Source: Pseudonocardia sp. EC080619-01 (GTDB lineage Bacteria; Actinomycetota; Actinomycetes; Mycobacteriales; Pseudonocardiaceae). Taken from it: 64,000 bases of DNA. The position numbers and the translations under genes are program-made. This document shows positions 9,049 to 42,478 of the stretch, piece by piece (the stretch's first letter is position 1; the number at the start of each line of letters is the position of its first letter). The stretch spans positions 1-64,000 of the forward strand of contig NZ_CP012184.1 in NCBI RefSeq assembly GCF_001420995.1. Direction: 5' to 3'. The notes beneath the pieces are model-generated. The model made no database searches. It had not been told where the DNA came from and saw nothing but the letters and a program-made list of their open reading frames with translations.

Positions 9049-10759
9049 CGGTCTTGTCCGTGACCCCGGCGCTGTCGAAGGTGGCGACGTCGGCCATGGC
9101 ACGTGCCGCGCCCTGCAGGACCGGCAGCGACAGCAGCGCTCCGGTGCCCTCCCCCAGCCGCATGTCGAGCTCCAGCAGCGGCGCCAGGCCCAGCCGGTCC
9201 AGCGCGATCGCCCCGCCGGGCTCGGCGGAGCGGTGCCCCGCCAGGCAGTACCCGGCCGCGTCCGGCGCGAACGCCGCGGCGACCAGCGCGGCGGACCCGG
9301 CGATGACGCCGTCGAGCAGCACGGGGGTGCGCAGCGCGGCGGCACCGAGGACGAACCCGGCGAGCCCGGCGTGCTCGAACCCGCCGACGGCGGCGAGCAC
9401 CCCGAGCGGGTCCGCCGGATCGGGCCGGTGCAGGTCCAGGGCGCGGCGGACGACGTCGGTCTTGCGGACCAGGGTCTCGTCGTCGATCCCGGTGCCCCGG
9501 CCCGTCACCTCCGCGGGATCGGCGCCGGTGAAGGCGCACACCAGCGCGGCCGCGGCGGTGGTGTTGGCGATGCCCATGTCACCGGTGAGCAGGCAGCGGT
9601 TCCCGGCGGCGACGAGGTCGCGGGCCACCTCGATCCCGTGCTCGACGGCCGCGCGCGCCTGCTCCCGGGTCATGGCGGGGCCGGTGGTCATGTCGGCGGT
9701 GCCGTGCGCGACCTTGCGGGGCAGCAGGCCGGGCACCGGCTCCAGGTCCGCGGCGACCCCGATGTCGACGACCTGCACCTCCGCCCCGAGCTGGCGGGCG
9801 AACGCGTTGACGACGGCCCCGCCGTCGAGGAAGTTCGCCACCATCTGCACGGTGACCTCCTGCGGCCACGGCGTGACGCCCTGCGCGTGCACCCCGTGGT
9901 CGGCCGCGAACACGGCGACGGCGGCGGGCGACGGCACCGGCGGCGGGCACGCTCCGGCGATCCCGGAGAGGGCGACGGCGACGTCCTCGACCCGGCCCAG
10001 CGCCCCGCGCGGCTTGGTCATCCGGTCCAGCCGGTCCTGTGCCGCGGCGCGGGCCTCCCCGTCGACCGGGCCCACGACGTCCACGGTGGACTCCAGGAGG
10101 GTGGTGGGCTCGGCGCCGGGCAGCGCCCGGGCACCCCAGGTCTCCTGGTGCACCGCCCAGTCCAGCGGGCGGCGGCGGGCCCAGCCGTGCCCCTCCAGCT
10201 CGGGGCGGTCCGGGAAGCCGTCGACGTGCCCGACGCACAGGTAGGCGACGACCTCGACGTGCGCGGGGAGGCCGAGCAGCTCGTGCAGCGCGTCGATGCC
10301 GTCGTCGCCGAAGAAGCTGACCCAGCCGACGCCGAGGCCCTCCGCACGCGCGGCCAGCCACAGGTTCTGCACGGCGAGCGCGGCCGAGTACGGCCCCATC
10401 TCCGGCCGGTCGTGCCTGCCGAGGGTGTGCCGGCCGCCGCGGGTCGGGTCGGCGGTGACGACGACGTTCAGCGGCGTCTCCCGGACCGCCTCGATCCGGA
10501 TCGACCGCAGCGCCTCCGCCCGTGCCGCGGGCAGCTCGGCCGCGTACCGGTCCCGCTGCTCGGCGACGAGGGCGTACACCCGCTCACGGGTCGCCGGGTC
10601 GCGGACCAGGACGAAGTCCCAGGGCTGGGAGAACCCGACGCTCGGGGCGGCGTGCGCGGCCTCCAGCACCCGGGTGAGCACGGCGTCGTCGACCGGGTCC
10701 GGGCGGAATCCGGTGCGGACGTCCCGCCGGGAGTGCAGCACGTCGTAGAACCCCTGCAC
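9041..10759 (-). CDS. BluB-CobT fusion: DMB synthase / NaMN:DMB phosphoribosyltransferase
   Basis: Two cobalamin lower-ligand enzymes are fused in one 572-residue chain. Residues 1 to about 215 are BluB, the flavin-destroying nitroreductase-fold 5,6-dimethylbenzimidazole synthase (FYDVLHSRRDVRTGFRPD, PSVGFSQPWDFVLV, WLAARAEGLGVGWVSFF). Residues about 225-572 are CobT, which attaches DMB to nicotinate mononucleotide (FAADHGVHAQGVTPWPQEVT, GDMGIANTTAAAAL, and LDMRLGEGTGA with the catalytic Glu). One polypeptide can therefore make and use DMB. The start is GTG at 10759 with GGGAGG 6 nt upstream. No cobalamin riboswitch box was seen upstream. Confidence 0.93.
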   Translation of the reverse strand: MQGFYDVLHSRRDVRTGFRPDPVDDAVLTRVLEAAHAAPSVGFSQPWDFVLVRDPATRERVYALVAEQRDRYAAELPAARAEALRSIRIEAVRETPLNVVVTADPTRGGRHTLGRHDRPEMGPYSAALAVQNLWLAARAEGLGVGWVSFFGDDGIDALHELLGLPAHVEVVAYLCVGHVDGFPDRPELEGHGWARRRPLDWAVHQETWGARALPGAEPTTLLESTVDVVGPVDGEARAAAQDRLDRMTKPRGALGRVEDVAVALSGIAGACPPPVPSPAAVAVFAADHGVHAQGVTPWPQEVTVQMVANFLDGGAVVNAFARQLGAEVQVVDIGVAADLEPVPGLLPRKVAHGTADMTTGPAMTREQARAAVEHGIEVARDLVAAGNRCLLTGDMGIANTTAAAALVCAFTGADPAEVTGRGTGIDDETLVRKTDVVRRALDLHRPDPADPLGVLAAVGGFEHAGLAGFVLGAAALRTPVLLDGVIAGSAALVAAAFAPDAAGYCLAGHRSAEPGGAIALDRLGLAPLLELDMRLGEGTGALLSLPVLQGAARAMADVATFDSAGVTDKTDG

Positions 10760-30917: not shown

Positions 30918-31676
30918 ATGGCCGACCGTCACGTCCCCGCCCCGTCCCGCACCGGAACCGTCGGCCGGGCCGGCCTGCCCCGGGCCGAGGTGCCCACCCA
31001 CTTCGACGACGGCGCGGGTGACTACGACCGGCTCGTCGGCATGAACCCCGGCTACCACGACCACCTGCGCGCCTCGGCCGCCCGGATGCGCCTGCCCCGC
31101 GACGGCGCCGGCCTCCGGCTGCTCGACGCCGGCTGCGGCACCGGTGCCTCGACCGCCGCGCTGCTGGGCGTCGCGCCGCGCGCGGAGATCGTCGCGGTCG
31201 ACGCGTCGGCCGGGATGCTGGAGCGGGCCCGGACCAAGCCGTGGCCCGGTTCGGTGACCTTCGTGCACAGCACCGCCGAGACCATGGCCGAGCACGGCGT
31301 CGAGGGGCCGTTCGGCGGCATCCTCGCCGCCTACCTGCTGCGCAACCTCGACGACCCGGACGCCCAGCTGCGCCGCTTCCACGACCTGCTCCGCCCCGGC
31401 GGCACCCTCGCCCTGCACGAGTACTCGGTCGCCGACTCCCCGCGCGCCCGCGCGGTCTGGCACGCGGTCTGCTGGGGCGTGATCGTCCCGCTGGGCCGGG
31501 TGACGACCGGTGAGACCGCGCTGTACCGGCACCTGTGGCGCAGCGTGAACACCTTCGACGGCGTCGGGCGGCTGCGCGACCGGATGCGCGCGGCCGGGTT
31601 CGACGCCGTGCACTCCGAGACGATGACGGGCTGGCAGAACGGCGTCGTCCACACCGTGCTCGGGTCCCGGACGTGA
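30918..31676 (+). CDS. Class I SAM methyltransferase of the carotenoid-type cluster (CrtT-like position)
   Basis: The 252-residue UbiE-like methyltransferase has motif I LLDAGCGTGASTAAL, the acidic strand end EIVAVDASAGMLERA, and LLRPGGTLALHEYSV. It is followed by a CrtU-like gene with a GTGA overlap. In isorenieratene clusters of streptomycetes the methyltransferase-like gene crtT sits beside crtU, so the context suggests a CrtT counterpart; the substrate is not proven. An in-frame ATG at 30834 is an alternative start. Confidence 0.82.
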   Translation: MADRHVPAPSRTGTVGRAGLPRAEVPTHFDDGAGDYDRLVGMNPGYHDHLRASAARMRLPRDGAGLRLLDAGCGTGASTAALLGVAPRAEIVAVDASAGMLERARTKPWPGSVTFVHSTAETMAEHGVEGPFGGILAAYLLRNLDDPDAQLRRFHDLLRPGGTLALHEYSVADSPRARAVWHAVCWGVIVPLGRVTTGETALYRHLWRSVNTFDGVGRLRDRMRAAGFDAVHSETMTGWQNGVVHTVLGSRT

Positions 31677-33286
31677 GCGTGCGGCCGGTCGACCCGCGGC
31701 GGGTGGTGCACCCCCCGGCGGGCGGCCTGGGCGACGCGGGGCTGCTCGGGCGCCGGCCGCGGGTGGCCGTCGTCGGCGCCGGCATCGCCGGGCTCGCCGC
31801 GGCGACCGGGCTGGCCGAACGCGGCGTCGCCGTCGAGGTCCTGGAGCGCGAGCCGCACCTCGGCGGGCGGGTCGGCGGCTGGTCGGACACCCTGCCGGAC
31901 GGCTCGCCGGTCGCGATGAGCCGCGGGTTCCACGCGTTCTTCCGGCAGTACTACAACCTGCGCAACCTGCTCCGGCGCGGTGACCCGGGCCTCGAGCACC
32001 TCGTCCCGCTGGCCGACTACCCGCTGGTCGACGCCGAGGGGCGTCGCGACACGTTCCGCGGTCTCCCCCGCACCCCGCCCTGGAACGCGGTGCTGTTCGC
32101 GCTGCGCAGCCCGACGTTCCGGCCGTCGGACCTGCTGCGGCTCGATCCCCGCGCCGCGGCGCCGCTCGCGGCGGTCTCGGTGCCGGGGATCTACGAGGCC
32201 ATCGACGACGTCGACGCGCAGAGTTTCCTCGAGTCGATCAACTTCCCGCCCGCCGCCCGGCACCTGGCGTTCGAGGTGTTCTCGCGCAGCTTCTTCGCCC
32301 CGCCGTCGACGATGTCGGCCGCCGAGCTGGCGACGATGTTCCACATCTACTTCCTCGGCTCCTCCGAAGGGCTGATGTTCGACGTCCCCGACGACGGGTT
32401 CGACGCCGCCCTCTGGGAGCCGTTGCGGCACTACCTCTCCACCCGAGGTGTCTCGTTCCGGACGGGCGTCGCGGTCTCGTCGGTGCAGCGCGACGTCGCG
32501 AGTGGACGGTTCCACGTGAATCATTCGTCCGGCGGTACCTCCACCGGTTCGTCCACCGTGGACGCCGTGGTCCTCGCGACGGACGTGCGCGGCCTGCGGG
32601 AGATCGTCGCCGCGTCGCCGGACCTGGGGCCCGCGGACTCGGGCCTCGGTGACCCGGAGGCGGTGCAGCACTGGCGCGACGACGTCGCCGCGCTCGGCAG
32701 CGCGCCGCCGTTCCTGGTCCAGCGCCTCTGGCTGGACCGCCCGGTGCGCGAGGACCGGCCGCCGTTCCTGGGCACCGGCGGGCTCGACCCCCTCGACAAC
32801 GTCTCGGTGCTCGACCGCTACGAGCGCGACGCCGCGTCCTGGGCGTCCCGGCACGGCGGGTCGGTCGTGGAGCTGCATGCCTACTCCGCGGCGGTACCCG
32901 ACGGCGTGGACGAGGCCGCCTGGACCGCGGACCTGCGTGCGCGGTGCCTGGCCCGGCTGCACGAGCTGTACCCGGAGACCGCCGGCGCCCGGATCACCGG
33001 GGAGCTCGTGCAGTGGCGCGCGGACTGCCCGATGTTCGGCGTCGGCGACTTCGCCCGCCGCCCGACCGTCGCGACCCCGCTGGACGGGCTGGTGCTCGCC
33101 GGCGACGGCATCCGGATCGACCTGCCCGTCGCGCTCATGGAGCGGGCGGCCGCCACCGGGTGGCAGGCGGCGAACCGCCTGCTCGCCGGCTGGGGGCTCG
33201 CCGGGCATCCCCTCGAGACCGTCCCGACCGGCGGGCGGCTCGGCCCGCTCCGGCGCGCCGCCGAGTACGCGATGCGGTCCCGCTGA
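31673..33286 (+). CDS. CrtU-like FAD carotenoid desaturase/methyl-migrating oxidoreductase
   Basis: The 537-residue flavoprotein has an N-terminal dinucleotide fold (RVAVVGAGIAGLAAATGLAERGVAVEVLERE) and segments typical of CrtU beta-carotene desaturase/aromatase: SRGFHAFFRQYYNLRNLLRRGDP, FPPAARHLAFEVFSRSFFAPP, FLGSSEGLMFDVPDDGFDAALWEPL. CrtU converts beta rings into aromatic (phi or chi) rings with methyl migration. The GTG at 31673 overlaps the methyltransferase stop (GTGA). Synthase, desaturase and cyclase genes (crtB, crtI, crtY) are not in the window, so the pathway is incomplete here. Confidence 0.83.
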   Translation: MSVRPVDPRRVVHPPAGGLGDAGLLGRRPRVAVVGAGIAGLAAATGLAERGVAVEVLEREPHLGGRVGGWSDTLPDGSPVAMSRGFHAFFRQYYNLRNLLRRGDPGLEHLVPLADYPLVDAEGRRDTFRGLPRTPPWNAVLFALRSPTFRPSDLLRLDPRAAAPLAAVSVPGIYEAIDDVDAQSFLESINFPPAARHLAFEVFSRSFFAPPSTMSAAELATMFHIYFLGSSEGLMFDVPDDGFDAALWEPLRHYLSTRGVSFRTGVAVSSVQRDVASGRFHVNHSSGGTSTGSSTVDAVVLATDVRGLREIVAASPDLGPADSGLGDPEAVQHWRDDVAALGSAPPFLVQRLWLDRPVREDRPPFLGTGGLDPLDNVSVLDRYERDAASWASRHGGSVVELHAYSAAVPDGVDEAAWTADLRARCLARLHELYPETAGARITGELVQWRADCPMFGVGDFARRPTVATPLDGLVLAGDGIRIDLPVALMERAAATGWQAANRLLAGWGLAGHPLETVPTGGRLGPLRRAAEYAMRSR

Positions 33287-33313
33287 CCCTGCCGACCTGC
33301 GAAGGAACCCGCC

Positions 33314-34321
33314 ATGACCCTCCTGTCCCGCCTCACCGGCCGATGGCCGGGCACCTGGCCGCTGCAGCCGCTGCCGTCGTCGCAGTGGGCCCGCCAGGAG
33401 CCGACCTACGCCGGCGCCGACCCGAAGCTGATCGCCGCGGCGCTGGAGCGGGCCCAGGCCCGCAGGTCCGGGAACTGGTTCGTCCTCGCGGCGAGCCGCG
33501 AGATCCGGGCCGACCGCCCGTTCGGCACCCGGGTCGGCGGCGCCGAGCTGGTGGCCTGGCGCGACGAGGACGGTGACGTGCGGATCGGGCCCGGCGCCTG
33601 CCCCCACCTCGGCGCGCCGATGGCGCTCGCCGCCGTCGACTGCGGCGAGCTGGTCTGCCGCTGGCACGGGCTGCGGCTCGGGGCCCGCACCGGCCCCGGC
33701 TGGGCCCTGCACCCCGCGCACGACGACGGCGTGCTCGTCTGGGTCCGGCTCGACGAGCTCGGCGGCGAGGAGCCGAGCGGCGCGCCGGTCGTCCCGGCCC
33801 GCCCCGCCGGCCGGACACTGGACGCGGTCACCACGCTCACCGGTGTCTGCGAGCCGGAGGACATCGTCGCGAACCGGCTCGACCCCTGGCACGGGGCGTG
33901 GTTCCACCCGTACTCGTTCCAGCGGCTCGACGTGGAGTCCGCGCCGGCCGTCACCGACGTGACCGAGTCCGACGACCGGTTCCTCGTCACCGTCACCTTC
34001 AAGGTCGGGCCGGGCCTCGGCGTGCCGGTGCGGGCCGAGTTCGTGTGCCCGGAGCCGCGCACCGTCGTCATGCGGATCGTCGAGGGCGAGGGTGTCGGCA
34101 GCGTCGTCGAGACGCACGCGACGCCGCGCGGTGCCGGCCGCGACGGGCGGCCCCGGACGTCGGTGATCGAGGCCGTCGTCGCCGGGTCGGATCGTCCCGG
34201 GTTCGCCGTCGCCTCCCGGATCGCCCCGGCGCTGCGGCCGGCGATGGCGAAGGCCGCGACGAGGCTGTGGCGCGACGACCTCGACTACGCCGAGCGCCGC
34301 TACGAGATGCGGACCCGCTAG
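33314..34321 (+). CDS. Rieske 2Fe-2S protein (DUF5914-like) of the carotenoid-type cluster
   Basis: The 335-residue protein has an N-terminal Rieske domain with CPHLGAPM and CRWHGLRL as the two CxH/CxxH cluster-ligand pairs (about residues 96-118). A long C-terminal domain follows (EDIVANRLDPWHGAWFHPYSFQRLDVESAP, then a beta-rich region). It is probably an electron-transfer or oxygenase component working with the flavoenzyme just upstream (27-bp gap). The ATG at 33314 has GAAGGA 7 nt upstream. Its TAG stop shares the palindrome CTAG with the stop of the opposing monooxygenase gene. Confidence 0.83.
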   Translation: MTLLSRLTGRWPGTWPLQPLPSSQWARQEPTYAGADPKLIAAALERAQARRSGNWFVLAASREIRADRPFGTRVGGAELVAWRDEDGDVRIGPGACPHLGAPMALAAVDCGELVCRWHGLRLGARTGPGWALHPAHDDGVLVWVRLDELGGEEPSGAPVVPARPAGRTLDAVTTLTGVCEPEDIVANRLDPWHGAWFHPYSFQRLDVESAPAVTDVTESDDRFLVTVTFKVGPGLGVPVRAEFVCPEPRTVVMRIVEGEGVGSVVETHATPRGAGRDGRPRTSVIEAVVAGSDRPGFAVASRIAPALRPAMAKAATRLWRDDLDYAERRYEMRTR

Positions 34322-35619
34322 TCCCCGACGCCTGCGCGGTCCCGCGGGCCGGGCCCGCTCGCCGCCGCGGGGGTACCGGCGGCCGGGGCACCGGGCACGA
34401 CCGTCGTGCGCTCGGGACCGGTACGGTGCCCGACGGGCTCACCGCGGCGGACGGCGAACCAGGTCCGCCTGCCGGTCTCGTACCAGCGCCGGGTCTTGCG
34501 GACCGGCAGGTACTGGATGGCGCGATGGCTGCGGTAACGCCACGGCGGCATCGGCCCCAGCCGGGCACACATCGCGGCCGCGAAGTCGGCCACGTCCCGG
34601 TCGGTGTAGCGGTCCATCTGCTCGAACCAGGCCATGCTGCTGCGCGCCGACGCCTGGGTCTGCTGCAGCGGACGCCGGCGCTGCCGCTCGTAGGTGTTCA
34701 GGGCACCGGTCAGGTCGTCCGGCCGCCCGAGGAGGCTGTGCGCGAGCGACACCGCGTCGAGGATCGCCAGCCGGGTGCCGGAGCCGATCGTGAAGTGGGT
34801 GGTGTGGGCGGCGTCGCCGACCAGGACGACGCCGTCGTGGTGCCAGCGCTCGTTGACCACCTCGGGGAAGTGCCGCCACTGCGCCGGCTCACCGCGGGAC
34901 GAGCCGATCAGGCGGTGTCCCCTCAGCGTCCCGGCGAAGATCTGTTCCATCAACGCGGTGCTCTCCGCGGGGGTCGTCGTGGCGAGCCCGAGGCCGTCCC
35001 AGGTCTCCTGCCGGCACTCGACGATGAAGGTGCTGGTCCCGGAGCTCGTCGGGTAGGCGTAGCACCAGACCCACCCCGACGGGGTCTCGACGAAGTCGAA
35101 GACGAACGTGCTGAACACGCGGTCGGTGCCCAGCCAGATGTAGGGGTTCCCGCCCGTCCGGACCGTGGTGCCGAACGCGCCGCCGTAGAGGGTGCGCACC
35201 CGGCTGTTCGCGCCGTCCGCGGCGACCACGAGATCGGCGGACGGAAGGTCGGCCGGCTCGGCGACCTCCTGCTCGTGGAGGACCTCGACGCCCAGGTCGG
35301 TGGCCCGCTCGGTGAGGATCCGCTGCATCGCCGCCCGGCCCACGCTGTAGCCGTAGCCGCCGAGGTAGGCGGTCCGCCCGCGCATCCGGATCTCCTGCTC
35401 CTGCCACAGCGCGGACACCGCCCGCAGCCTGCGGCCGCTCTCGGCGTCGTTGCGGTAGAGGGTGTCGAGCAGATTGTCCTTGTAGACGACACCCCAGCCG
35501 TAGGTCGCGCCGGGCGGATCGCGGTCGAGGACGGTGATCTCGTGTCCGGCGTCGCGCAGCTTGGCGGAGAGGGCGAAGTACAGGCCGGCGGGTCCCCCGC
35601 CGACGCACACGATCTTCAT
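34318..35619 (-). CDS. FAD-dependent monooxygenase (VioD / salicylyl-CoA hydroxylase-like)
   Basis: The 433-residue group A flavin monooxygenase starts with KIVCVGGGPAGLYFALSAKL (FAD-binding GxGxxG variant). It has DLVVAADGANSRVRTLYG near residue 130 and VVLVGDAAHTTHFTIGSGTRLAILDAVSLAHSL near residue 265. The whole resembles VioD tryptophan hydroxylase and the N-terminal half of salicylyl/anthraniloyl-CoA hydroxylases. No Shine-Dalgarno precedes the ATG at 35619; the sequence directly upstream is the end of an IS110 element that appears to have separated the start from its ribosome site. On the same strand, across the IS, lie an ABC exporter and a Trp-rich peptide gene, suggesting a peptide or Trp-derived substrate. 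It is convergent with the Rieske gene. Confidence 0.85.
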   Translation of the reverse strand: MKIVCVGGGPAGLYFALSAKLRDAGHEITVLDRDPPGATYGWGVVYKDNLLDTLYRNDAESGRRLRAVSALWQEQEIRMRGRTAYLGGYGYSVGRAAMQRILTERATDLGVEVLHEQEVAEPADLPSADLVVAADGANSRVRTLYGGAFGTTVRTGGNPYIWLGTDRVFSTFVFDFVETPSGWVWCYAYPTSSGTSTFIVECRQETWDGLGLATTTPAESTALMEQIFAGTLRGHRLIGSSRGEPAQWRHFPEVVNERWHHDGVVLVGDAAHTTHFTIGSGTRLAILDAVSLAHSLLGRPDDLTGALNTYERQRRRPLQQTQASARSSMAWFEQMDRYTDRDVADFAAAMCARLGPMPPWRYRSHRAIQYLPVRKTRRWYETGRRTWFAVRRGEPVGHRTGPERTTVVPGAPAAGTPAAASGPGPRDRAGVGD

Positions 35620-35640
35620 GAGGAGGTGGTCCCTAAGGTC

Positions 35641-35820
35641 GTAGGTGTTCGGGGTTGGTGCCCCGGATGCCCGGGACGACGGGGTGTGGCTGATGAGGTG
35701 TTGTCGCTTCGGTGGCTCGGAAGGAATGGCCGCCCCGTCGTGCTGGACAGGCCTGGCCACTGATTCGGATCTGTGCGGACCGTCGCTGATTAGGGACCTG
35801 ATGGCGGGTTGTCCACGGGC
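35641..35820 (+). ncRNA. Candidate IS110 bridge RNA with identifiable target and donor guides
   Basis: The non-coding left end contains a 5' hairpin (35648-35667). A 9-bp stem (35676-35684 with 35733-35741) closes a 48-nt loop, and a 6-bp stem (35744-35749 with 35810-35815) closes a second loop. In the first loop TGATGAGG (35691-35698) copies the left flank TCATGAGG with one mismatch. TCGGAAGGAAT (35717-35727) can pair with the right flank 37085-37095 at 10 of 11 positions, one of them a G-U. In the second loop TGATTCGG (35761-35768) copies the element's right end TCATTCGG. TTAGGGACC (35790-35798) is complementary to the left end at 35628-35636. This is the target-loop/donor-loop logic of IS110 bridge RNAs. 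Confidence 0.65.
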
Positions 35821-35847
35821 GTGACCTGCAACGACAGGAGCCTGCGC

Positions 35848-37071
35848 GTGGCGCAACGGCCAGTGATCTGGATCGGGATCGACGTCGGGAAGAGGACGCA
35901 CCATGCGTGCGCGATCGATACCGACGGCAAGGTGGTGTTCTCCCGCAAGGTCAGCAACGACCAGGCCGCGATCGAGGCGTTGCTGGCCCGCGCTGCGGAA
36001 GCGGCCCAGGACGTGCGGTGGGCCATCGACCTGACCTGCAGCTATGCGGCGCTGCTGCAGGTGGTCCTCACCGCGGCCGACCAGCAGGTGGTCTATGTCC
36101 CCGGTCGGGTCGTCGACCGGATGAGCGGCGTGTTCCGGGGCGAGGCCAAGACCGACGCCCGTGACGCGAAGGTCATCGCCGAGACCGCCCGCATGCGCGG
36201 CGCCGACCTCACCACGGTCACCGCCACTGATGAGACCACTGCCGAACTGGCCCGGCTCGTGGCCCATCGCGAGGACCTGATGGCCGACTGGGTGCGCGGG
36301 GTCAACCGGCTGCGTGACCTGCTCGGGTCGATCTTTCCCGGTCTCGAGGCGGCATTCGACTATTCCACCCGCAGCGCTCTGGTGCTGGTCACCGGGTTCC
36401 AGACACCCCAGGCCCTCCGGGACGCCGGCGAGGCAGGGGTGATCGAGTACCTGCGTGCCCATCGGGCGTGGGCACCGGGTATTGCTGCGATGGCCGCCAC
36501 CGCGGTCGAGGTCGCCCACGCCCAGACCGTGGCACTGCCCAGCGAGACGCGGACCGCGATCCTTGTTGCCGGCCTGGCCCGACGACTGCTGGAACTCGAC
36601 CGGGAGATCAAGGACACCGACAAGCTGATCACCACCGTGTTCCGCTCCCACCCGGACGCGGCGATCATCGAGTCGCTGCCCGGTCTCGGACCCATCCTGG
36701 GCGCGGAGTTCCTCACCGCCACCCACGGCGGTGTCGGCCCTGAACTGGGCGGATTCACCTCTCCAGGGCGGCTGGCCTCCTACGCCGGACTCGTCCCGGT
36801 GCCCCAGGACTCCGGCCGGATCAGCGGGAACCTGCGTCGCCCACGACGCTACAACCGCCGCCTGCGGCGAGTGTTCTACATGGCCGCACTGTCCAGCCTC
36901 AAGGTCAATGGCCCGTCCCGGGCCTTCTACCAGCGCAAACGCAGCGAAAGAATGCTTCATACCCAGGCTCTGCTCGCCTTGGCCAGACGCCTGGTCGACG
37001 TCCTGTGGGCCCTGCTGCGTGACCGGAGGATGTTCACCATCACCGCACCACAACCCGCTATCGCGGCTTGA
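35848..37071 (+). CDS. IS110-family transposase (DEDD recombinase)
   Basis: The 407-residue protein has the RuvC-like DEDD domain at the N-terminus: WIGIDVGKRTHHACAID, WAIDLTCSYAALL (Asp where many relatives have Glu), and EAKTDARDAKVIAETAR. The C-terminal Transposase_20 domain reads ESLPGLGPILGAEFLTATHG, SPGRLASYAGLVP, and the catalytic-Ser region FYMAALSSLKVNGPSRAFYQRK. The GTG at 35848 is preceded by CAGGAG with 7-nt spacing, better than upstream alternatives. The gene is full length, so the element is probably active. Its last 14 bp overlap the 3' end of the opposing ABC gene. Confidence 0.92.
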   Translation: MAQRPVIWIGIDVGKRTHHACAIDTDGKVVFSRKVSNDQAAIEALLARAAEAAQDVRWAIDLTCSYAALLQVVLTAADQQVVYVPGRVVDRMSGVFRGEAKTDARDAKVIAETARMRGADLTTVTATDETTAELARLVAHREDLMADWVRGVNRLRDLLGSIFPGLEAAFDYSTRSALVLVTGFQTPQALRDAGEAGVIEYLRAHRAWAPGIAAMAATAVEVAHAQTVALPSETRTAILVAGLARRLLELDREIKDTDKLITTVFRSHPDAAIIESLPGLGPILGAEFLTATHGGVGPELGGFTSPGRLASYAGLVPVPQDSGRISGNLRRPRRYNRRLRRVFYMAALSSLKVNGPSRAFYQRKRSERMLHTQALLALARRLVDVLWALLRDRRMFTITAPQPAIAA

Positions 37072-39055
37072 CACGGTCATTCGGATTCCCTTCGACCGGA
37101 TGGGAAACGGGGTGTGGGGCGGGCTCGGGGCCGGGCGGCACCTCGGCGCGCCGGTGACGGCCGTTGCGGGGCGCGCCGCCCGGGACGTCGGAGGTGCCGG
37201 GCACCCGCACGACCCGCTGCGGTCGCTCGGACGGGCGGTGGTGCAGGCGGTACAGGTCGGCGTAGCGCCCGTCGGCCCGCATCAGCTCGTCGTGGGTGCC
37301 GGCCTCGGTGATGCGGCCGTGGTCGACGTGCACGATCCGGTCGGCATCGGCCACGGTCAGCAGGTTGTGCGAGATGACGACCGTCGTGCGGCCCGCCATG
37401 AGCCGCCGCAGCGGGGCGAGGATCCGCTCCCCCGCCTCCGCGTCGAGGCTCGCGGTGGGCTCGTCGAGCAGCAGGACGGGGGCGTCGCGGACCATCGCGC
37501 GGGCGATCGCGATCCGCTGGCGCTGGCCCCCCGAGAGCAGGCGGCCACGCTGCCCGACCCTGGTCTCGTAGCCGTCGGGCAGGGCGCTGACGAACTCGTG
37601 GGCGTCGGCGGCCCGGGCCGCCGCGACGACCGCGGCGTGGTCGGCGTCCGGGCGCCCGGCGAGGATGTTCTCCTCGATGGTGCCGTCGAGCAGCAGGGTC
37701 TCCTGCAGGACGATCGCGACCGCCCCCCGCAGCGCGTGCGGGTCCAGGTCCCGCAGGTCGTGACCGTCCAGGGTGATCCGGCCCTCGGTCGGGTCGTAGA
37801 AGCGGAGCAGCAGTTTCATCAGTGTCGTCTTGCCGGCCCCGCTGGCGCCGACGATCGCGGTGGTCTCCCCCGGCGCGGCGGTGAACCCGATGTCGTGCAG
37901 CACCTCGGTGCGGGACTCCGGGTAGCGGAACCCGACACCGTCGAGCCGGAGCAGGCCGCGCGGCCGGGCCAGGCGCACCGGGTGCTCCGGGACGGCGACG
38001 TCCGGCTCCTGGTCGAGCAGCTCGACGATCCGCTCGGCACCGGCGGCGGCGGCGAAGACCGTGTTCGAGAGCTGTCCCAGGCCCCGGACCGGGCCGTAGA
38101 GCTGCGACAGGTAGATGAGGAACGCCAGCAGGCCGCCGAGGCTGATCTGCTCGAGCGACAGCTGCCAGATCCCGACGCCGACGACCGTCATCACCCCGAC
38201 GACCTGGAACAGGTCGATCGTCGGTCCGAACATCGCCGCGATCCGGGCCGCGGCGAGCTGGGCCCGCACGGTGCCCCGTGCCTGCTCGTCGAACCGGTCG
38301 ACCTCGGCGCCCTCCCGGCCGTAGGCCTGCACCAGGATCGCGTTGCCGAGGCTCTCCTCGGCCACCACGTTGACCGAACCGCTGCGCCGGCGCACCTCGC
38401 GCGACGCCAGCTTGATCCGGCGGGAGAACGAGCGGGCGATCAGCCAGAAGAACGGGACGGCGATCATCGAGATCACCGCGAGCTGCCAGTTCAGGTAGAA
38501 CATCACGCCGCCGAAGATCCCTATCTTGATCAGGGCGGAGAGCGCCTGTGCGATTCCGGCGAGCAGCAGCGCCTCGATCGTCGCGACGTCACCGGAGAGG
38601 CGGGTCAGGATGTCGCCGAGACGACGACGGTCGAAGAATCCGACCGACAGCGTGTGCAGGTGCGCGAACACCCGGGTCCGCATCCGCCGGAGAAAGTTCT
38701 GTCCGATCCAGACCGCGAGGTACTGATCGAAGAATCCGACGACCCCGCCGAGCAGGGTCAGTCCGACATATCCGGCGACGACGAGGGGAAAGGCGCCGAA
38801 ATCACGGGGAGTGAGCACGTCGTCGACGAGGACCTTGAACATCCAGATGACGGCGGCCTCGAGCGCCGGGGTCACCACGATGAAGAACAACGTCAGGCAC
38901 AGCCACCCGCGGAACGGACGGACGTCCGGTGCGAACCTGCGGAAGATCTCGACGACGGTCTTCGCCGGGACCGGCTCCACCAGCCCCTCGGCCGTCTCGC
39001 CGGGCCGCAGCATCTCCCGGAGCCGCTCCCGCACCGCACCCGCCCGTCGTCGCAC
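37058..39055 (-). CDS. ABC exporter, fused permease and ATPase
   Basis: The 665-residue half-transporter has six membrane helices (about residues 50-335) and a nucleotide-binding domain (about 365-600). Walker A is VGASGAGKTTLMKLL, the signature LLSGGQRQRIAIARA, Walker B PVLLLDEPTASLD, and the switch His is in TTVVISHNLL. There is no C39 peptidase domain. GTG 39055 is preceded by GGAGG; an in-frame GTG at 39079 is an alternative. The last residues (DRVKPR and stop) are encoded by IS110 sequence, so the natural C-terminus was probably altered. It directly follows a Trp-rich peptide gene, making peptide export a plausible role. Confidence 0.88.
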   Translation of the reverse strand: MRRRAGAVRERLREMLRPGETAEGLVEPVPAKTVVEIFRRFAPDVRPFRGWLCLTLFFIVVTPALEAAVIWMFKVLVDDVLTPRDFGAFPLVVAGYVGLTLLGGVVGFFDQYLAVWIGQNFLRRMRTRVFAHLHTLSVGFFDRRRLGDILTRLSGDVATIEALLLAGIAQALSALIKIGIFGGVMFYLNWQLAVISMIAVPFFWLIARSFSRRIKLASREVRRRSGSVNVVAEESLGNAILVQAYGREGAEVDRFDEQARGTVRAQLAAARIAAMFGPTIDLFQVVGVMTVVGVGIWQLSLEQISLGGLLAFLIYLSQLYGPVRGLGQLSNTVFAAAAGAERIVELLDQEPDVAVPEHPVRLARPRGLLRLDGVGFRYPESRTEVLHDIGFTAAPGETTAIVGASGAGKTTLMKLLLRFYDPTEGRITLDGHDLRDLDPHALRGAVAIVLQETLLLDGTIEENILAGRPDADHAAVVAAARAADAHEFVSALPDGYETRVGQRGRLLSGGQRQRIAIARAMVRDAPVLLLDEPTASLDAEAGERILAPLRRLMAGRTTVVISHNLLTVADADRIVHVDHGRITEAGTHDELMRADGRYADLYRLHHRPSERPQRVVRVPGTSDVPGGAPRNGRHRRAEVPPGPEPAPHPVSHPVEGNPNDRVKPR

Positions 39056-39183
39056 GCCCACCTCCGCTCGTCCCTGCACGTCATGTCCCGTACGTCACGC
39101 TCCGGGCAGGCGGTGGCCCGTAGACCGAGGTCCAGGGACATCGGGGCCACCGCCCACGTCATCGACCTAGCACCGGTGCGGGC

Positions 39184-39354
39184 TCAGCAGTCGGAGTTGC
39201 TGCCCCAGCCGCCCCACCCCTTTCCCCAGCTGTCGTCATCGTCGTCGTCGTGCTTGCGGTGCCAGTCGCCCCAGCCACCCCAGCCGCCCCAGCTTCCCCA
39301 GTCGTCGTCCTTGTCGTCGTGGCCGTTCCACCAGCCACCCCAGTGATCACCCAT
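39184..39354 (-). CDS. 56-residue Trp/Gly/Asp-rich peptide (possible precursor peptide)
   Basis: The reading frame from ATG 39354 to TGA 39184 encodes 56 residues: 11 Trp, 15 Gly, 14 Asp and 4 His, with a single Cys as the last residue. Trp recurs in WGxWGGWGGWGDW spacing, then a six-Asp run (residues 36-41), then WGKGWGGWG. No signal peptide or known domain. AAGGTGG lies 6 nt before the ATG, and codon choice becomes coding-like only from this ATG. It is followed on the same strand by an ABC exporter and, beyond an IS, a flavin monooxygenase. It may be a RiPP precursor, a metal-binding peptide or an adhesive protein; which is not known. Confidence 0.65.
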   Translation of the reverse strand: MGDHWGGWWNGHDDKDDDWGSWGGWGGWGDWHRKHDDDDDDSWGKGWGGWGSNSDC

Positions 39355-39750
39355 CGTGATCCACCTTCTTCTCGGTGCGGGAGGACCGCCGTCGACGGCC
39401 CCCGGAGTCCGCTCCGGCCCGGATCCGTCCAACGCGTGGGCGGAGGGGTGCCGATCGCCGCCTCCGATCGCCGGACTCGGCGGCCGGAGCGGGGCCGTTT
39501 CGCGGCGCCGGAACAACTCACTCGATTGCAGGACCGAAACCATTCATCGGTGTCGCGACGATTCGTCGACAGCAGACACCGTTCATTCGAACCCTATTCC
39601 GGCGTAGCCGGTGAAATGCGACGGAAGCGCCGGGAGTGGCGTCGGGACCGAAAGGGAACACCGGTCGACCGGGGACCGTACGGCATTCTGCGGAGACCCG
39701 TCACGACGTCCCGCGGTTCTCAACCACCGGATTGACGACATCCGGGCGAC
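39355..39750. other. Intergenic region upstream of the Trp-rich peptide gene
   Basis: These 396 bp hold no credible gene on either strand. The centre (39530-39620) is AT-richer than the surroundings. On the minus strand it has a TAGGGT -10 candidate (39596-39591) and a weak GTTC-ATTC-GAAC inverted repeat (39581-39592), so it probably contains the promoter and a long leader for the peptide gene. Confidence 0.45.
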
Positions 39751-40776
39751 TCAGCGCCCCGGGAGCGCCGGGCCCGCCTTGCGCAGCGTCCGGGGCGGGA
39801 CGCCGAACCAGCGCCGGGACGCCCGGGTCAGCGCGGACTGCTCGGCCAGCCCCACCATCGCGGCGATCTGGGTGAAGGGCAGGTCGGAGCGGGTGACGAG
39901 GCGCTCGGCAGTGTCCCGCCGTGCGTCGTCGACGATCTGCTCGAACGTGGTGTCCTCGGCGGCGAGGTGGCGCTGCAGGGTCCGCGGGTGCACCCGCAGC
40001 AGCCGTGCGACCGCACCGATCCGGACCGGGCCCGTCCCGAGCGACCGGTCGACCGCCGTCCGGACCCGGTCGGTGACCCGGCGGTCCGGGCGGTCGAAGT
40101 GCGTCTCCAGGTACTCGATCGCGATGTCGCGGACGGCCTGGTCGCCGTCGAGCGGCCGGCGCGGCAGGTCGGCGGGCACCCGCAGCACGGCGGTCGGCCG
40201 GTCGAACCGGACCTCTGCGCCGAAGAACTCGCGGTAACGCCGTTCAGAAGCGAGTGCCGGGTGCGGCAGGTGTACCGAGCGGAGCCCGTACCCGCCCCCC
40301 GACAGCAGCCCGATGATCCGGTGCAGCACGCCGACCCCGAGGTCGGCCACGTGCGGCGGGAGGCGCTCGGTGCTGCCGTACTCGACGCCGGTGACCCCCG
40401 CGACGTGCTCCGGGTCCGGCACGGCGGCGATGCGGAGCGCGGGACTGTGCACGTAGAGGTACTTCGAGGCGCAGTCGAGCGCGGCGCCCAGGGTCGGCGA
40501 GTTCTGGACGGCGACGGCGAGCGGCCCGAGGATCTCCGGCCCCTGCCGCTCGGCCAGGCGCAGGCCCAGGTCGCTGCAGTCCAGCTCCGCCGCCGCGGTC
40601 TCGAGGACGAGCGCGACCGCGCGGGTCGGGACGAGGGCGTCCGGGTCGGCACCGTCCACGGCCTCGGCCGGGATGTGGAACCGGTCGAGCATCGCGGCCC
40701 CGTCCCCGCCCAGCTCGTCGACCAGCCCGGGCAGGCCGCGCAGCGCTCTCGCCCGGGTGAGCGATCCCGTCCCCAT
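39751..40776 (-). CDS. AraC-family regulator (VirS-like)
   Basis: The 341-residue protein has an N-terminal arabinose-binding-like domain of the OruR/VirS type (about residues 15-200; GLRLAERQGPEILGPLAVAVQNSPTLGAALDCASKYL). The C-terminal double HTH reads IGAVARLLRVHPRTLQRHLAAEDTTFEQIVDDARRDTAERLV, then FTQIAAMVGLAEQSALTRASRRWFGVPP. It is divergent from a MymA-like monooxygenase operon, exactly the virS-mymA arrangement of Mycobacterium tuberculosis. The ATG at 40776 lies 8 nt after a -10 with a matching -35, so earlier TTG or GTG codons sit inside the promoter and are rejected. Confidence 0.87.
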   Translation of the reverse strand: MGTGSLTRARALRGLPGLVDELGGDGAAMLDRFHIPAEAVDGADPDALVPTRAVALVLETAAAELDCSDLGLRLAERQGPEILGPLAVAVQNSPTLGAALDCASKYLYVHSPALRIAAVPDPEHVAGVTGVEYGSTERLPPHVADLGVGVLHRIIGLLSGGGYGLRSVHLPHPALASERRYREFFGAEVRFDRPTAVLRVPADLPRRPLDGDQAVRDIAIEYLETHFDRPDRRVTDRVRTAVDRSLGTGPVRIGAVARLLRVHPRTLQRHLAAEDTTFEQIVDDARRDTAERLVTRSDLPFTQIAAMVGLAEQSALTRASRRWFGVPPRTLRKAGPALPGR

Positions 40777-40784
40777 GTCGTCCG

Positions 40785-40819
40785 AGGGTAAGTTGTTGTC
40801 GCGCACAGTCAAGTTACCC
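40785..40819 (-). promoter_or_regulatory. virS-like promoter with overlapping inverted repeat
   Basis: On the minus strand TTGACT (40812-40807), 16 nt, then TACCCT (40790-40785) form the promoter. GGGTAAGTTG (40786-40795) and CAAGTTACCC (40810-40819) form 10-bp arms with one mismatch and a 14-nt spacer. The repeat spans both hexamers, ideal for AraC autoregulation and control of the divergent operon. Confidence 0.65.
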
Positions 40820-40903
40820 GCGGTAGGTTACGGGCAGAATCGACCGCAGCGAACACCATCACCGCAGACGGTGCACGAACAGCGCAGACAGGAGGCCGCT
40901 GGA

Positions 40904-42478
40904 ATGACGCAGCCCACCGCGACGCCCGGGCCGGGCGCCACCGCCGGGCCCGAGCACCACGACGTGATCATCGTCGGTGCCGGTCTGTCCGGGATCGGTG
41001 CCGCCTGCCGGCTCCAGCAGGAGCTCCCCGGCAAGGACTACGCGATCCTCGAGGGCCGGGAGAACGTCGGCGGGACCTGGGACCTCTTCCGGTACCCGGG
41101 CATCCGCTCCGACTCGGACATGTTCACACTCGCCTACCCGTTCCGGCCCTGGCGCGAGCGCAAGTCCATCGCCGACGGCGCCGACATCCGGCGCTACATC
41201 GTCGACACCGCCCGCGAGTACGGCGCGCTGGACCGGATCCGGTTCGGCAACCGCGTCGTCGGCGCCTCCTGGGACTCCGCGGCCGCGCTCTGGACCGTGC
41301 GCACCGAGACCGCCGACGGCCCGCGCACCTACACCTGCGCGTTCCTGTTCATGTGCTCCGGCTACTACGACTACGACGCCGGCTACCAGCCCGAGTTCCC
41401 GGGCCGCGAGGACTTCGCCGGCACCTGGGTGCACCCGCAGTTCTGGCCCGAGGACCTCGACCACGCCGGGAAGAAGATCGTCGTCATCGGCTCCGGCGCC
41501 ACCGCGGTGACGCTGATCCCGTCGCTGGCCGACCAGGCCGAGCACGTGACGATGCTGCAGCGCTCGCCGTCCTACCTGACGGTGCTGCCGAGCACCGACC
41601 CGATCGCCGACCGCCTGCGGAAGTACCTGCCCGCGAAGGTCGCGCACCACATCCTGCGGCTGCAGTACGTGACGCTGACCCAGGCGTTCTACCAGCTCGC
41701 CCGCCGCCGCCCGGAGCGCGTGAAGAAGGTCCTGCGCGGTCTCGCCCTGAAGTTCCTCAAGGACGAGTCCTACGTCGACCGGCACTTCACCCCCAGCTAC
41801 GAACCGTGGGACCAGCGGCTGTGCGTGATCCCGGAGGGCGACTTCTTCAGATCCATCAACGCAGGGCGCGCCTCGGTCGTGACCGACCACATCGACCGGA
41901 TCACCGAGAAGGGGATCCGGCTGCGCTCCGGTGAGGAGCTGCCCGCCGACGTCGTCGTCTCGGCGACCGGGCTGTCCCTGAAGCCGCTGGGCGGCATGAC
42001 CATCCACGTCGACGGCGAGCAGGTCGACATCGGCAAGACGGTCACCTACCGCGGCCTGATGCTCTCCGGCGTGCCGAACCTGGCGTTCTGCATCGGCTAC
42101 GTCAACGCGTCCTGGACGCTGCGGGCCGACCTCGTCGCCCGCTACGTGCCGCGCCTGCTCGGGATGATGGACCGCGAGCGCGTCGCCGTCGCGACCCCCG
42201 CGCCCACGGTCTCGCCGGACCGCCCCCTGCTGGACCTCGCGTCCGGCTACGTCAAGCGCTCCGAGCACCTCTTCCCGCGGCAGGGCCGCACGGACCCGTG
42301 GCGGCTGCGGCAGAACTTCTTCCTCGACGCCGTCGGGCTCGGCCGGGCCGACCTGAAGAAGGACATGCTGCTCACCCCGGCGTCCGCGGTCGGCGCCCGG
42401 TCCGCCGCGGTGCCCCGCCCGTCGGTCGCCGGCATCGCGGCCGACGCCCCCACCGAGACGCAGGAGGTGGCCTCGTGA
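40904..42478 (+). CDS. MymA/EthA-type flavin monooxygenase (Baeyer-Villiger type)
   Basis: The 524-residue flavoprotein has DVIIVGAGLSGIGAACRL near residue 20, a second nucleotide fold IVVIGSGATAVTLIPSL near residue 190, and the Baeyer-Villiger fingerprint FAGTWVHPQFWP near residue 170. It most resembles M. tuberculosis MymA (Rv3083) and EthA, which oxidise ketones and thio compounds; MymA also takes part in fatty-acid/mycolate modification under acid stress. An AGGAGG lies 8 nt before ATG 40904. It is the first gene of a three-gene unit (flavin monooxygenase, SDR, hydrolase) divergent from the AraC regulator. Confidence 0.88.
   Translation: MTQPTATPGPGATAGPEHHDVIIVGAGLSGIGAACRLQQELPGKDYAILEGRENVGGTWDLFRYPGIRSDSDMFTLAYPFRPWRERKSIADGADIRRYIVDTAREYGALDRIRFGNRVVGASWDSAAALWTVRTETADGPRTYTCAFLFMCSGYYDYDAGYQPEFPGREDFAGTWVHPQFWPEDLDHAGKKIVVIGSGATAVTLIPSLADQAEHVTMLQRSPSYLTVLPSTDPIADRLRKYLPAKVAHHILRLQYVTLTQAFYQLARRRPERVKKVLRGLALKFLKDESYVDRHFTPSYEPWDQRLCVIPEGDFFRSINAGRASVVTDHIDRITEKGIRLRSGEELPADVVVSATGLSLKPLGGMTIHVDGEQVDIGKTVTYRGLMLSGVPNLAFCIGYVNASWTLRADLVARYVPRLLGMMDRERVAVATPAPTVSPDRPLLDLASGYVKRSEHLFPRQGRTDPWRLRQNFFLDAVGLGRADLKKDMLLTPASAVGARSAAVPRPSVAGIAADAPTETQEVAS

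Follow-up and report, generated by a model that had tools for sequence, protein, structure and literature searches.

The first 64,000 nucleotides of contig NZ_CP012184.1 of Pseudonocardia sp. EC080619-01 (hereafter the window) carry, on the minus strand, genes for a 56-residue Trp- and Gly-rich peptide, an ATP-binding cassette (ABC) exporter and a flavin monooxygenase (FMO). We find that the linkage of such peptides, which are built of Trp-Gly (WG) repeats, to FMOs of one clade is real and widespread, and of this we are nearly certain. It is also likely, in our view, that the peptide is a ribosomally made polypeptide whose indoles are hydroxylated by the VioD-like FMO before export, the chemistry and the role in this reading being predicted ones. 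The features of the locus are the following:

39184..39354, minus strand: precursor (substrate) peptide gene, 56 aa, with its ATG at 39354 and its stop ending at 39184; homologues occupy the same position in relatives
39361..39367, minus strand: putative ribosome-binding site AAGGTGG of the peptide gene, from the sequence; comparable sites lie 5' of the relatives' peptides
34318..35619, minus strand: FAD monooxygenase of the VioD/salicylyl-CoA-5-hydroxylase type (Pfam FAD_binding_3), proposed peptide indole hydroxylase
37058..39079, minus strand: MsbA-like half-size ABC exporter, dedicated, its native C-terminus swapped for a tail encoded by an insertion sequence (IS), from comparison of domains and relatives
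39108..39156, minus strand: GC-rich hairpin, predicted by folding, in the stretch that separates the precursor stop from the exporter start, with a stem of ~11 bp and a loop of >20 nt
35630..37089, plus strand: IS110-family element, outside the system, with its transposase at 35809-37071 on the plus strand (PF01548, PF02371; NF033542)

All three minus-strand genes are present where a first-pass annotation of the window had placed them. The peptide holds 11 Trp, 15 Gly, 14 Asp and 4 His, including eight WG pairs, and is laid out as WGxWG repeats with linkers rich in Asp and His and a C-terminal Cys. It is the only strict WG-rich open reading frame (ORF) in the window, where strict means at least three WG and at least six Gly in 25 residues, together with a start codon; in the 7.2-Mb genome, it is the sole match to one WG-repeat DNA pattern. 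A plain HMMER search with the peptide in 60 genomes including its own returned only itself, though several of these hold homologues, so that such low-complexity peptides need to be searched for by position and composition.

Within Pseudonocardia, an exporter profile run on 62 genomes set apart 12 loci, spread over 10 genomes and including the window, that score at least 1132 bits; the remaining matches listed stayed at or below 907 bits, and none of the 18 lower-scoring loci examined has a WG peptide. The 11 further high-scoring loci, from nine other genomes, have the FMO directly downstream of the exporter with no IS between them. A WG peptide lies 5' of the exporter at 8 of the 12 loci by script and at two more by eye (L070 and L071); over the 11 IS-free loci, the upstream peptide is complete in nine and runs into a contig edge in two, where L064 keeps a 12-residue WG-rich tail and L066 four residues (GGWH), a weak case. 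Stop and start codons of exporter and FMO overlap as ATGA in 15 of 16 IS-free collinear loci, the exception being L107 with a 23-nt gap. In these relatives the peptide thus adjoins exporter and FMO and keeps its Trp pattern, which, together with the ATGA coupling, strongly supports the earlier proposal that the three genes are a natural set. That the exporter could instead be a generic drug pump, a reservation of the same annotation, was rejected on the basis of the score gap and the confinement of the peptide to the high-scoring group. At one place (L073; G012:C5, ~9371-10210) a clade FMO lies next to what is left of a trio-type exporter (truncated; 280 aa matched, 72%), and no WG peptide adjoins them; to judge from these remnants, it is a decayed copy of the module.

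Distribution of the peptide and monooxygenase pair

Beyond the genus, one genome per species from 84,980 species was scanned with an FMO alignment and the best 80 loci were kept; more exist. A quick maximum-likelihood tree of 88 FMOs divides them into 70 rows including the window and 18 outgroup rows, with full support (100) in the Shimodaira-Hasegawa-like approximate likelihood ratio test (SH-aLRT); the 80 named loci in it comprise 64 of the clade and 16 of the outgroup. A strict WG ORF occupies the same slot, at most 700 nt upstream of the FMO or at most 400 nt upstream of the exporter, in 48 of the 64 clade loci, and only one other was seen elsewhere in 779 kb; the 16 outgroup loci have none, either in the slot or anywhere in 177 kb. 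Seven of the 16 clade loci missed by the strict rule are cut by contig ends: L085, L103, L111, L130, L131 and L135 upstream, with peptide tails still visible in the first three, and L104 on the side that in two close relatives, L087 and L102, contains exporter and peptide. Weaker peptides are found at L105, L106 and L134, and when weaker cases are added by eye and contig-cut loci excluded, 51 of 57 assessable clade loci carry a WG peptide. A ribosomal precursor beside a gene for a modifying enzyme, the hallmark of ribosomally synthesised and post-translationally modified peptides (RiPPs), is accordingly present in these proportions, strict and assessable, with the modification itself being predicted. 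The pairing is seen in Pseudonocardiaceae, Streptomycetaceae, Nocardiaceae, Frankiaceae and Geodermatophilaceae, as well as in unplaced metagenome-assembled genomes (MAGs).

A sample of 296 genomes across the class gave a similar picture. An FMO match at E of 1e-120 or better was present in 35, and 29 loci were retrieved in addition to the window. In a FastTree tree of 117 FMOs, 17 of the 29 fall within the clade (support 0.83) and 11, including L292, group with the outgroup, while L299 is the next branch outside the clade. Fourteen of the 17 clade loci are preceded by a WG ORF of the same orientation, the other three having 277 nt or less of upstream sequence, and no WG ORF is present at the 11 outgroup-side loci or at L299. 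The boundary was set by score at first, with two members already known, and was then checked against the tree; as all 17 loci belong to one family (f32), and several are from the named Frankiaceae genomes, the count is not wholly independent of the 64 loci above.

The search was also reversed, using WG-repeat DNA patterns blind to the FMO on the 296 class genomes and 249 genomes of the order. Most matches were unrelated repeats; in the 60 loci retrieved from among the matches, 30 for each scan, convincing WG ORFs were found in nine Frankiaceae loci and the window, and six of these nine have the FMO within 1.5 kb. Seven other ORFs (L233, L239, L244, L256, L258, L259 and L262) were dropped by eye for their irregular sequence. 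Carriage of the module on plasmids found no support, since none of the 101 plasmid records matched by the FMO reaches 60% identity. As a separate observation, outgroup-type FMOs with 44-47% identity to that of the window recur as tandem pairs in Pseudonocardia (e.g. G000:C1:329411-332094); the single piece read, L081, has no WG peptide.

Export routes, the intergenic hairpin and the IS110 element

The export tally covers 51 clade loci in which a looser script found the peptide. Thirty precursors have a signal-like stretch (mean hydrophobicity of at least 1.9 over 14 residues), to which reading adds two (L094 and L144); these Sec-type signals are a feature of Nocardia and Streptomycetaceae, and no exporter of at least 55% identity is present in the fetched flanks of the 32 signal-bearing precursors. 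An exporter is present in 13 of the 51 loci, and a signal was seen in none of these, the start of L111 being lost at a contig edge; six loci have neither (L088, L092 and four from Frankiaceae). This pattern follows families and thus represents few evolutionary events rather than 45 independent ones, and a Fisher test on 30/0 vs 0/13, which ignores relatedness, was not used as a probability. Read at the sequence level, the fact that signals and exporters do not mix says that the product leaves the cytoplasm. Of the minimal set put forward in the first-pass annotation, the peptide and FMO hold as the core, whereas the exporter represents one of the two means of export found with it.

The window exporter has the Pfam domains ABC_membrane and ABC_tran, and no peptidase family is among its 18 Pfam matches, so that it is not a C39 peptidase-exporter. 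Its native start may be GTG 39034 instead of 39079, judging from relatives.

Leaders differ between families. Frankiaceae precursors begin in a manner resembling MKATYxAPxL..GSF, and four of five score above the cut-off of the NCBIfam model lasso_leader_L3 (NF033521); precursors of Saccharopolyspora and of Pseudonocardiales MAGs share an N-terminus like M-x-IK-x-x-F, and those of Pseudonocardia have no obvious leader. No lasso genes (cyclase, B1/B2) were recognised by eye beside the Frankiaceae precursors at six loci, which therefore do not qualify as lasso loci; a lasso-type B2 peptidase (PF13471) is encoded in all nine Frankiaceae genomes, always elsewhere than at the WG loci, and it is possible that lasso B1/B2 act on the WG precursors in trans. 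Two further observations concern these genomes. At L310, L311 and L315, a leader-bearing precursor is followed by genes that by eye have the sizes and order of a lasso cluster, a reading based on six of the nine fetched B2 places as listed, and these precursors also carry a Trp-rich core of the GRWGWGRD type. At L263, L264 and L267, a conserved WG precursor with a lasso-type leader has no FMO within ~8 kb, and L263 and L267 have the same gene close to it, one whose protein begins with a signal-like stretch.

Between the precursor and the downstream gene, a stem of at least 12 bp occurs in 40 of 49 loci, compared to 39 of 980 length-matched random windows drawn from these loci. The window itself was scored as a miss (stem of 8), because the script limited loops to 20 nt; the fold does show a hairpin, although the z-score of the 150-nt piece is just -0.09. 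The hairpin sequences differ among clades, single-fold z-scores are mixed (four of nine below -2.5), no U-tract was seen 3' of the stem in nine folds, and RNAalifold on 15 Nocardia intergenic regions gave compensatory changes in 0 of 24 pairs and hence no covariation. Hairpins located between the gene for a structural peptide and the genes for its enzymes are known to keep the RNA of the first gene in excess, and the hairpin of the window is likely to be an attenuator or an mRNA-stabilising element of this kind.

The insertion sequence was correctly described as lying between exporter and FMO genes. It encodes a DEDD transposase (PF01548) with a Transposase_20 domain (PF02371), scores 242.6 bits against NF033542 (cut-off 140) and is thus a member of IS110. 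The genome has 15 full copies including this one, with 100% identity among the matches listed and identical first bases in 14 of the 15; the insertion is recent. It ends 10 nt upstream of the FMO start and has cost the exporter its last codons, with an IS-encoded tail in their place. When the flanking sequence is joined at the shared IS ends, the exporter stop, as we read it, overlaps the FMO start in frame as ATGA, which three of the nine offsets tried produce, namely those of equal length; the junction reconstructed in the first-pass annotation is thus supported by the overlap that the IS-free loci really have. In this strain, the element would have cut the coupling between exporter and FMO, and expression of the FMO may be lower or dependent on the IS.

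All 15 full copies of the element have their left end 5-10 nt from an outward-read start codon (14 ATG, 1 GTG), and ORFs of >100 aa open there in 12 of 15 (window plus L192-L202 and L276-L278 in G000); an ATG-started ORF of at least 60 aa lies within 12 nt of 12 of 15 left ends vs 175 of 4000 random sites. This looks like a target preference for a TCATG/ribosome-binding-site region, perhaps set by the bridge RNA.

At its 3' end, the FMO gene overlaps a convergent gene, stop codon on stop codon; the convergent gene ends at 34321. The genes flanking the module (31535-34321 and 40673-42478, both plus) resemble, by names assigned by eye from their translations, an FAD oxidoreductase, a Rieske-type oxygenase and a Baeyer-Villiger-type FMO; such neighbours are not evident in the relatives' listed flanks.

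Proposed chemistry and competing explanations

A profile search of solved structures with the FMO returned VioD at the top (E of 3e-56 and 7e-55; next 1e-21), with a nearly full-length alignment. In NCBIfam, the N-terminal part of salicylyl-CoA 5-hydroxylase comes first (371.6 bits, cut-off 1078); the VioD model NF053547 gives 172.7 bits (cut-off 620) and the QhpG model 36.7 (cut-off 240), so that the enzyme is, by these scores, related to VioD but not VioD itself, and it falls outside the qhp-type FMOs. The N-terminal GGGP and GDAAHTTH are among the residues that are invariant or nearly so in 73 FMO sequences. The FAD-binding motif is located directly at the N-terminus, with no signal; as FMOs of this type require FAD and NAD(P)H, the enzyme most likely acts before export. 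Since VioD is the closest among solved structures and the NCBIfam matches are related, hydroxylation of the indole at C5 is our best guess, held with about even confidence; indole epoxidation or double hydroxylation may take place instead. In 11 trio-type peptides from Pseudonocardia, Actinomycetospora and Geodermatophilus, none has Phe and 10 are without Tyr, which leaves Trp as practically the only aromatic target. These peptides are mostly acidic, with net charges from -13 to +1 and -10 for that of the window.

We thus propose the following sequence of events. The short first gene would be expressed in excess of the downstream gene, as the hairpin and the ribosome-binding sites suggest. The cytosolic FMO, which in relatives is translationally coupled to the exporter, would then bind the unfolded repeat and hydroxylate its indoles; C5 is the most likely position, being the one that VioD hydroxylates on its Trp-derived indole. 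For the oxidised polypeptide, the way out would be the dedicated ABC exporter in Pseudonocardiaceae and Geodermatophilaceae and the Sec pathway in Nocardia and Streptomycetaceae, two routes that we infer from the non-mixing gene patterns. Outside the cell, we speculate, hydroxyindoles might bind metal together with Asp/His or Gly-His linkers, or become oxidised and cross-linked. A tentative and rather doubtful extension of this is that filamentous actinobacteria have a counterpart of quinone-tanned proteins, i.e. a secreted Gly-Trp polymer hydroxylated at multiple indoles by one FMO and cross-linked or loaded with metal at the cell surface; the module would then constitute a new class of RiPP with Trp oxidised at multiple sites and with two interchangeable export routes.

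Several observations weigh against indole hydroxylation of the WG polypeptide. Six clade loci (L098, L112, L113, L115, L137 and L146) lack a nearby peptide despite available sequence; two Streptomyces precursors have just two WG, and that of L105 is rich in Gly, His and Tyr instead. Other forms from Streptomyces and Saccharopolyspora contain Phe or Tyr, and the modified residue there could be a different one. The N-terminal half of salicylyl-CoA hydroxylase outscores VioD on the FMO, as given above. In the called genes next to 11 loci, which were read by eye rather than searched by family, no gene for a protease, for recognition or for immunity is evident, and no other shared gene either. Lastly, a WG peptide stands without an FMO within ~8 kb at four Frankiaceae places (L263, L264, L265 and L267, the last being a related place outside the nine loci of the reversed search); because all four genomes have an FMO locus at another place, the precursor of L263, L264 and L267 may be modified in trans.

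Some of these points would also fit an FMO that works on a small aromatic or indole metabolite, with the WG polypeptide as a secreted partner that binds or scavenges the product, a metal or a pigment. Most FMOs of the superfamily have small molecules or CoA thioesters as the substrates that they hydroxylate, the top NCBIfam model is of just that kind, and some clade FMOs stand alone. We nonetheless consider this unlikely, given that the peptide is the recurrent partner in five named families with no other shared gene evident by eye beside 11 loci, that Trp is the near-exclusive aromatic residue of the trio-type peptides, and that the Frankiaceae precursors carry a RiPP leader. That leader, the short peptide and the dedicated exporter could also belong to a Trp-rich antimicrobial (bacteriocin) with the FMO as a tailoring or self-protection enzyme; this is less probable still, as the mostly acidic trio-type peptides are unlike cationic Trp-rich antimicrobial peptides, no immunity or protease gene is evident by eye beside the 11 loci, and the forms of Nocardia and Streptomyces are long Gly-rich repeats that resemble structural proteins.

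The precursor also has to be a translated gene in the first place. In 16 Nocardia precursors, variation is 0.30 at third codon positions vs 0.14 at first and 0.11 at second positions, although an alignment built on protein letters somewhat favours this result; for Gly codons alone, it is 49% at the third position vs 10% and 9%, and 10 of 13 Trp columns contain Trp or gaps alone. The repeats share their reading frame with the Sec-type signals or leaders, and on such sequence patterns the WG precursor is a real coding gene. TGGGG repeats are common outside such genes too in GC-rich genomes, but that the ORF is untranslated, the repeats being a DNA or RNA element or a misread Pro/Gln-rich ORF of the opposite strand, is contradicted by the ribosome-binding sites, the in-frame signals and leaders, the codon-position pattern and the occurrence in the same slot in most FMO-clade loci, and is hardly conceivable.

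Should indole hydroxylation of the WG polypeptide prove correct, the module would add a widespread way of making polypeptides that contain hydroxyindoles, and one that needs just two or three genes. An FMO that by itself modifies one Trp after another would be of use in biocatalysis, and in its product soil actinobacteria could have a new material with a structural, redox or metal-binding role.

Comparison with known systems

Oxidation of peptide Trp by a flavin enzyme had been thought new in the first-pass annotation, but it has a precedent in the maturation of quinohemoprotein amine dehydrogenase, where the FMO QhpG dihydroxylates a Trp of QhpC and is encoded in an operon that also has an ABC exporter gene (PMC7876137). 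The likeness is that an FMO hydroxylates Trp of a ribosomal polypeptide, which an ABC exporter (QhpF) then exports; the difference is that the Qhp system, which also comprises QhpD and the protease QhpE, alters a single Trp in an enzyme subunit that has already been cross-linked through thioethers, and cleaves a leader, whereas the WG module has a Trp repeat and no evident cross-linking enzyme or protease. The FMO of the WG module is also far closer to salicylyl-CoA hydroxylase (371.6 bits) and to VioD (172.7) than to QhpG (36.7). VioD resembles it as the closest solved structure over nearly the full length; it acts on a small bis-indole substrate within the multi-enzyme violacein pathway.

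With lasso peptides, the likeness is in the leader alone, on the Frankiaceae WG precursors (NF033521); no lasso genes were recognised by eye beside them at six loci, and the lasso-like clusters of these genomes lie elsewhere and have other precursors. A more distant analogy, and a speculative one, is to the Gly-rich structural proteins of animals that are cross-linked through DOPA or His: these have Gly-His and Gly-aromatic repeats, which the Nocardia and Streptomyces precursors share, and their chemistry is that of Tyr/DOPA.

Atropopeptides and crocagins are RiPPs with oxidised Trp that use other enzymes (P450s in the one case; CgnB, CgnC and CgnE in the other) and are not known to have WG repeats. 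They are likewise made from short ribosomal precursors with oxidative modification (PMC11450843, PMC10070186). Open PubMed Central papers, the scope of our literature search, yielded nothing on a family that combines a WG-repeat peptide and an FMO. Set beside these systems, the family, which may be listed somewhere without a name, is apparently an undescribed variant of RiPP-like peptide maturation.

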